Origin: Prorocentrum cordatum
Lineage: Eukaryota; Sar; Dinophyceae; Prorocentrales; Prorocentraceae
DNA length: 64,000 nucleotides
Assembly (NCBI GenBank): GCA_963575745.1
Contig: CAUYUJ010016360.1
Location: 309,001-373,000 of the forward strand
Direction: 5' to 3'
The notes beneath the pieces are model-generated. The model saw only the letters and a list, made by a program, of their open reading frames with translations, was not told the DNA's origin and made no database searches. A program made the position numbers and the translations under genes. Positions 13,979 through 14,015 of this stretch are shown here, in pieces. Each line of letters begins with the position of its first letter. Position 1 is the stretch's first letter.

Positions 13979-14015
13979 CTTGAGCCAAAATGGCTTGAGC
14001 CAAAATGGCTACGGA
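13979..14015 (-). other. Dinoflagellate spliced leader followed by a relict leader
   Basis: 14015-13994 matches the complete 22-nt DinoSL, including the variable first base (T here). Immediately after it, 13993-13979 reads CCATTTTGGCTCAAG, which is the leader lacking its first seven bases. That truncation falls exactly after the AG inside the leader, the expected result when an old leader in a retrocopied gene is used as the acceptor for a new one. The leader touches the (ATC)n tract directly, so it is the true 5' end of the inserted cDNA. It is not a spliced-leader RNA gene: no splice donor follows. Confidence 0.95.

Follow-up and report, generated by a model that had tools for sequence, protein, structure and literature searches.

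An 8.3-kb LINE on the minus strand of the 64-kb stretch of Prorocentrum cordatum DNA analysed here (the window; GC content 61.8%) begins with the spliced leader of its host, followed directly by a truncated relic of an older leader, and continues through ORF1, an endonuclease, a reverse transcriptase (RT) and a predicted RNase H. We consider it likely, with a probability of about three in four, that the element's own capped and trans-spliced mRNA was reverse transcribed to give this insertion and that the source copy bore a leader too. What can be read directly from the DNA is the leader pair with its register and its location at the 5' end, the (ATC)n flank on either side and the lack of a poly(A).

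A pattern search of the window found one exact copy of the 22-nt dinoflagellate spliced leader, DinoSL (DCCGTAGCCATTTTGGCTCAAG), and, with up to three mismatches allowed, two matches compared with a maximum of none in 100 shuffles, which rules out a chance match. The second of these (13979-14000, three mismatches) is the relic overlapping the full leader: directly behind the complete unit lies CCATTTTGGCTCAAG, the remainder of a leader downstream of the AG in TCCGTAG. No other leader-like site was found in the 64 kb when searching for the leader with up to five substitutions, the relic with up to three or the last 12 nt with up to one. The leader adjoins the (ATC)n repeat and is the outermost sequence before it; as its initial T and C continue the phase of the repeat, the junction is ambiguous by 1-2 nt. 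The arrangement is that of a DinoSL-relict retrocopy, in which the copied unit starts, in the genome, with a DinoSL, whether full or truncated, and which shows, following the definition given in PMC3229502, a tandem relic cut after leader nucleotide 7. In the passages of that paper, relict leaders truncated after nucleotide 7 lie directly downstream of a canonical leader and are explained by a new leader being spliced at the AG inside the old one; the origin of relics is also treated in PMC7245778. The preliminary description of this DNA had placed a complete 22-nt leader at the junction of the (ATC)n flank and the LINE, for which the evidence is now stronger than claimed; its interval, 13979-14015, covers both units, whereas its text named a single leader and missed the tandem relic.

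Table 1. The LINE, its 5' leader units and its flanks, listed from the 5' to the 3' side of the element with positions in the window.
Feature	Position	Strand	Basis and remarks
Upstream (ATC)n array	14016..14180	-	TRF; no AG in the ~200 nt before the leader, outer neighbour included
DinoSL, complete 22 nt, outermost and youngest	13994..14015	-	exact match, 0 in 100 shuffles; direct reading
Leader relic, 15 nt, CCATTTTGGCTCAAG, older	13979..13993	-	exact; leader without its first 7 nt
5' UTR, relic to first ATG of ORF1 frame, 188 nt	13791..13978	-	428 nt if ORF1 starts at second ATG, 13550
ORF1, 401 aa from first ATG	12585..13790	-	open frame and three relatives
Endonuclease domain (APE/LINE type)	11690..12589	-	predicted fold, tblastn, alignment; frame open 14008-11606
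G7 run where endonuclease and RT frames part	11694..11700	-	frame analysis
RT and RNase H open frame, 1817 aa	6433..11886	-	relatives, Pfam, alignment, fold
RT Pfam match, below Pfam's cut-off	8806-9546	-	RVT_1
RNase H, predicted	~7267-7719	-	alignment and Pfam of relatives
3' UTR, 756 nt, strongly structured	5677..6432	-	folding z -6.8, 20 shuffles
Downstream (ATC)n array, same orientation, less pure	5167..5676	-	TRF

That ORF1 is probably a gene rests on its relatives and not on GC by codon position (0.73, 0.54 and 0.72, with no third-position excess). The protein search found at least three relatives, which cover 68% of the query with identities of 99, 81 and 80%, and the closest is 98.7% identical to the window over 312 residues, indicating that close copies or strains exist. 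The records of all three begin at the second Met (13550), an alternative start that would give 321 aa, and near the ORF1 start a Cys-rich motif (CPQCG...CRSCG) can be made out by eye. In each of the three protein searches, scoring was confined to the ~8,000 candidates with the most words in common, so that all numbers of relatives are lower bounds. The leader together with the 5' UTR folds more stably than shuffled sequence (z -3.4, 200 shuffles), an effect weaker than that of the 3' UTR.

The endonuclease region is matched by relatives P0004, P0006 and P0007 in tblastn (12466-11756), and its AlphaFold model (mean pLDDT 69.8) places L1 endonuclease or L1 ORF2p at Foldseek ranks 1-5, a bacterial relative at rank 6 with cellular APE nucleases close behind, and the TRAS1 endonuclease at rank 9. 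A further relative, P0011, matches Pfam Exo_endo_phos above the cut-off. The fold and these matches point to an APE-like endonuclease upstream of the RT, as LINEs have it, here predicted in a frame separate from that of the RT. For the RT frame at least five relatives were found at E 1.7e-42 or better; three RT Asp positions and four acidic RNase H positions, which we take to be catalytic, are invariant in all six aligned proteins. The Pfam domain RVT_1 scores 15.7 bits against a cut-off of 29.6, and RNase_H is matched by four of the six aligned proteins, the window's own not among them. A fold search with the RT model ranked L1 ORF2p at 1-6 and R2 at 7, with low confidence (mean pLDDT 50, TM-scores ~0.3), while PDB searches returned one unrelated weak match by sequence with P0002 (E 0.47) and a weak RNase H match by profile (E 0.071). 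The relatives, the invariant Asp positions and the low-confidence fold suggest that the RT is related to those of LINEs. In both frames coding is supported by GC at third codon positions, which is 0.85 versus 0.49 at second positions for the endonuclease and 0.82 versus 0.56 for the RT.

The element had been called complete-looking, and indeed the frames of ORF1, endonuclease and RT/RNase H are open. However, the reading frame breaks at the G7 run, and the Asp of the endonuclease GDxN motif, present in all five relatives aligned there, is Gly in the window copy (the Asn of this motif is missing in three of the same five). Endonuclease and RT are joined in one protein in four of the five ORF2 relatives (P0004-P0007), and the fifth, P0003, starts within the endonuclease part. 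These two changes may mean that the window copy is dead, or they may reflect sequencing errors. We also considered an LTR element, which is ruled out by the lack of long terminal repeats: blastn of the element against the window, with the low-complexity filter on, returned the element itself and one internal 58-nt repeat pair. This pair (10452-10509 and 10599-10656, 81% identity, 147 nt apart) is an in-frame duplication between endonuclease and RT.

TRF calls two arrays of ATC units in the 64 kb (1.2% of the sequence outside the element), and both are flanks of the element. Because they have the same orientation, the element appears to split one array, in which a target-site duplication is indistinguishable from the repeat. 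At the 3' end no poly(A) was found, the longest A run in the last 300 nt being 3. A poly(A) is expected of an L1-type processed copy, though not always required; without it the 3' end is unlike that of a mature polyadenylated mRNA, whereas the 5' end looks like one. The nearest AG upstream of the leader begins 200 nt away, which makes the AG inside the leader the first that a transcript meets, and an equally long AG-free sequence lies behind 0.65% of the positions of the minus strand and 0.91% of those of the plus strand. Such an AG-free (ATC)n run would account for the re-splicing of a read-through transcript at the leader itself, a point seen post hoc that follows from the composition of the repeat. 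Microsatellites are among the known LINE targets, as for the (TG)n Togen families, and the target-specific R1 and Tx1 clades use an APE endonuclease (PMC4640811). The present element resembles these in its insertion into a simple repeat and in its predicted APE-type endonuclease, but its own target specificity rests on one copy, inserted where TRF calls the window's single tract of ATC units.

From these features we infer how the element was transcribed, which acceptor was used and which enzyme did the copying. An older insertion would have copied a trans-spliced mRNA of the element to its cap, leaving a leader in the DNA. Transcription across this older copy would then have produced a pre-mRNA whose trans-splice acceptor was the AG within the leader (TCCGTAG^CCATTTT...), yielding a fresh 22-nt leader on a 15-nt relic. 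In the last step, the structured 3' UTR would have been recognised by the LINE machinery, which would have cut into an (ATC)n array and reverse transcribed the mRNA as far as its cap; the copy in the window would be the product. That the leader forms the exact 5' border implies that the last template ended at the leader, i.e. at the cap, and the relic behind it that the source copy of this template probably already had a leader in its DNA. The earlier proposal that the element was copied from capped, trans-spliced mRNA is well supported as the simplest reading, and the tandem relic points in addition to two or more mRNA-to-DNA rounds. The leader would act as a portable splice acceptor, offering the first AG downstream of an (ATC)n outron that has none, and the element could live on read-through transcription while the host regenerates its 5' end in each round. 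According to PMC6050394, tandem leaders would be the product of upstream promoters and not of a leader promoter, so that the tandem leader found here fits an upstream transcription start for at least one round.

Several points count against this account. The account is based on a single copy, and slippage of 15 nt may mimic a second round. The missing poly(A) and the lack of a third-position GC excess in ORF1 also speak against it. If the window copy is dead, another copy may have supplied the enzyme that mobilised it. Furthermore, polycistronic expression appears to be rare, as in L. polyedrum, the one species cited in PMC11453091, which counts against a general supply of read-through transcripts, and the LINEs of the Suessiales have been characterised as divergent remains of an ancient expansion (PMC10235124).

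The strongest of the alternatives, which we nevertheless regard as unlikely, is that the leader is a passenger: the LINE would normally have its own promoter and 5' end, and the window would hold a one-off processed copy, perhaps mobilised in trans by another RT as host retrogenes are. The finding of one copy only, carrying a frame break and the Asp-to-Gly change, would fit this, as would the abundance of dinoflagellate retrogenes with leader relics and the preference of one review for LTR elements as the engine (PMC6050394). On the other hand, the element has LINE machinery of its own, and the tandem relic implies that the source copy was already leader-bearing. Leader relics on retrocopied host genes of dinoflagellates, to which the preliminary description had referred, are well known and borne out by passages of PMC3229502, PMC7245778, PMC12014239 and PMC6050394. 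These DinoSL-relict retrogenes share with our element the genomic leader, the relic cut after nucleotide 7 behind a full leader and the interpretation as repeated mRNA-to-DNA cycling, but their cargo consists of host genes, in contrast to the LINE found here, which brings its own ORF1, endonuclease, RT and RNase H. In a similar way, relict dinoSLs mark retroposed RNA-virus sequences in dinoflagellates (6 of 26 RdRp ORFs), for which LINEs were proposed as mediators (PMC10235124); the cargo in that case is viral, and in the passages of that paper no leader is demonstrated on a LINE itself. The same paper argues for LINEs from their neighbourhood, yet calls the LINEs of these algae common, non-active remnants.

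Related sequences were also sought in other collections. No relative of the element was confirmed in viral contigs (queries P0002 and P0009) or in genome contigs (alignment A1), and the tandem-leader pattern had no match in the genome contigs collection. An in-frame leader peptide (AILAQ, PFWLK, or HFGS then R or S) was absent from the first 400 residues of the nine relatives P0003-P0011, which says little as these come without DNA context; among the window's own proteins P0001 and P0002, P0001 matches. A scan of viral contigs for the single relic returned 37 stretches, and in 36 of them no more than three of the six bases before the relic fit the leader, so that these look like chance. The exception is IMG/VR contig IMGVR_UViG_3300045993_001077, a virus-labelled contig with 22% GC and two exact DinoSL sites 147 nt apart on its minus strand (~1790-2914). 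The second site starts a stretch of ~50% GC (2767 to ~1790) with a 254-aa ORF between AT-rich ORFs, one of which encodes a family-41 glycosyltransferase (2.2e-46); this region has the appearance of a trans-spliced dinoflagellate mRNA that a giant-virus-like genome took up as DNA.

A reading of low probability holds that the DNA-encoded leader is more than a splice acceptor and is itself a promoter, each new copy being transcribed from its TTT(G) motif. This was proposed for retrogenes in PMC6050394 from the conservation of the motif in relicts, which means that the earlier statement that the leader has no known promoter was not the whole story. By the reasoning of the same review, however, a start at the leader should leave few tandem leaders and a start upstream many, and the leader here is in tandem. 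The solution adopted by the trypanosomatid LINEs L1Tc and ingi is a different one: their hosts likewise use trans-splicing, have scarce promoters and require that elements be released from co-transcripts, but these LINEs carry the Pr77 hallmark, which is a promoter and an HDV-like ribozyme, and have unspliced transcripts (PMC8190864). We found no HDV-like ribozyme at the 5' end of our element, either as an Rfam match at gathering score or among 11 weak matches, a search that could miss a diverged ribozyme. Cer1 of C. elegans is a retrotransposon whose spliced transcript can carry a trans-spliced SL1; unlike the present element, it is an LTR element, and its 8-kb Gag-Pol-encoding RNA is not trans-spliced at the SL1 site (PMC3315495).

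We give similarly little weight to a single round of trans-splicing in which the 15-nt relic arose by DNA slippage, as a duplication of part of one leader. Three of the eight possible 15-nt duplications inside the leader do give the observed sequence, but over all lengths from 3 to 22 nt only 3 of 210 tandem duplications do so, and the register of the relic is the one published for re-spliced leaders (PMC3229502). Very improbable, in our view, is a template jump at the 5' end, by which the RT would have left the element RNA for an SL-bearing RNA and so added the leader during insertion. Chimaeras of LINE-1 with other RNAs are known (PMC13174262), yet one would not expect the end of a jump to coincide exactly with the AG-defined edges of the two leader units.

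The same low chance applies to an assembly artefact, in which the (ATC)n arrays were misjoined or cDNA was present in the library. Simple-repeat flanks on both sides are places where assemblers can misjoin, but a misjoin within an array alters what lies beyond it and not the junction of leader and array, and equally oriented (ATC)n on both sides would not occur in a cDNA, in which, moreover, a poly(A) would be expected; none is present. LINEs of the NeSL, SLACS and CZAR group resemble our element in lying beside spliced-leader sequence, and differ from it in their restriction-like endonuclease. Although elements targeting spliced leader exons exist and NeSL and SLACS insert there (PMC4640811), insertion of such a LINE into a spliced-leader RNA gene has a negligible probability here and was rejected, as (ATC)n lies outside the leader and on both outer sides of the element, there is no leader sequence at the 3' side and no second leader site in the window, no Rfam family was found in the window at gathering score, and the endonuclease is predicted to be APE-like.

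Outside the element, Pfam found nothing at E 0.01 in ten larger frames picked by hand from outside the element's ORFs (99 frames listed), and the window contains several further repeats. A repeat of ~160-170 nt occurs at 2598-2766, 37439-37607 and 40934-41091, with inverted pairs that are 97% (2598 versus 37439) and 95% (37454 versus 40934) identical, and is possibly a short non-autonomous element. A 93-nt unit with a GC-rich, palindrome-like core is present four times (28776-28868, 29049-29141, 31852-31944 and 32126-32218; 63-81% identity to the reference copy), a larger repeat links 28365-28586 and 31400-31621 (88% alike), and degenerate minisatellite arrays of an 11-nt type (GGCCTCTTGGG) lie at 15014-16242, 18535-18636, 19448-19790, 30399-30514 and 54920-55067.

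No report of a LINE beginning with a tandem DinoSL was found in the literature searched, which consisted mostly of titles, the starts of abstracts and passages. The retrogenes of Song et al. 2017 reportedly may include RT-bearing ones. Leader relics on host retrogenes are known; what appears to be new is that the cargo of such a leader-relict retrocopy is itself the machinery that does the copying. A parallel outside the dinoflagellates comes from Schistosoma mansoni, where six genome-encoded SL exons merged with transposable elements were suggested to have been trans-spliced and retro-transcribed (PMC5832876); that case concerns another phylum and another leader, its authors allow for chimeric assembly, and the passages of the report describe no tandem, re-spliced leader.

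Returning to reverse transcription of the element's own trans-spliced mRNA, a wider version of this reading, which we put forward tentatively and consider rather doubtful, is that of a LINE lineage without a promoter or 5' end of its own, which uses the leader as a portable acceptor, targets AG-free (ATC)n and obtains a new cap and leader from the host in each round, so that its generations can be counted in 15-nt relics, the same machinery being the engine of dinoflagellate mRNA recycling. In PMC6050394 the retroelement that recycles dinoflagellate mRNAs is stated to be unknown, and LTR elements are favoured. A LINE that itself bears leader and relic provides evidence that full-length, trans-spliced mRNA is within reach of LINE-type insertion. 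Furthermore, the element provides a family whose 5' ends are countable in existing assemblies, by which the driver of mRNA recycling in dinoflagellates would become testable. If general, this would be a LINE that relies on a 5' end supplied by its host and not on an internal promoter, which differs from the promoter-plus-ribozyme solution of the trypanosomatids.
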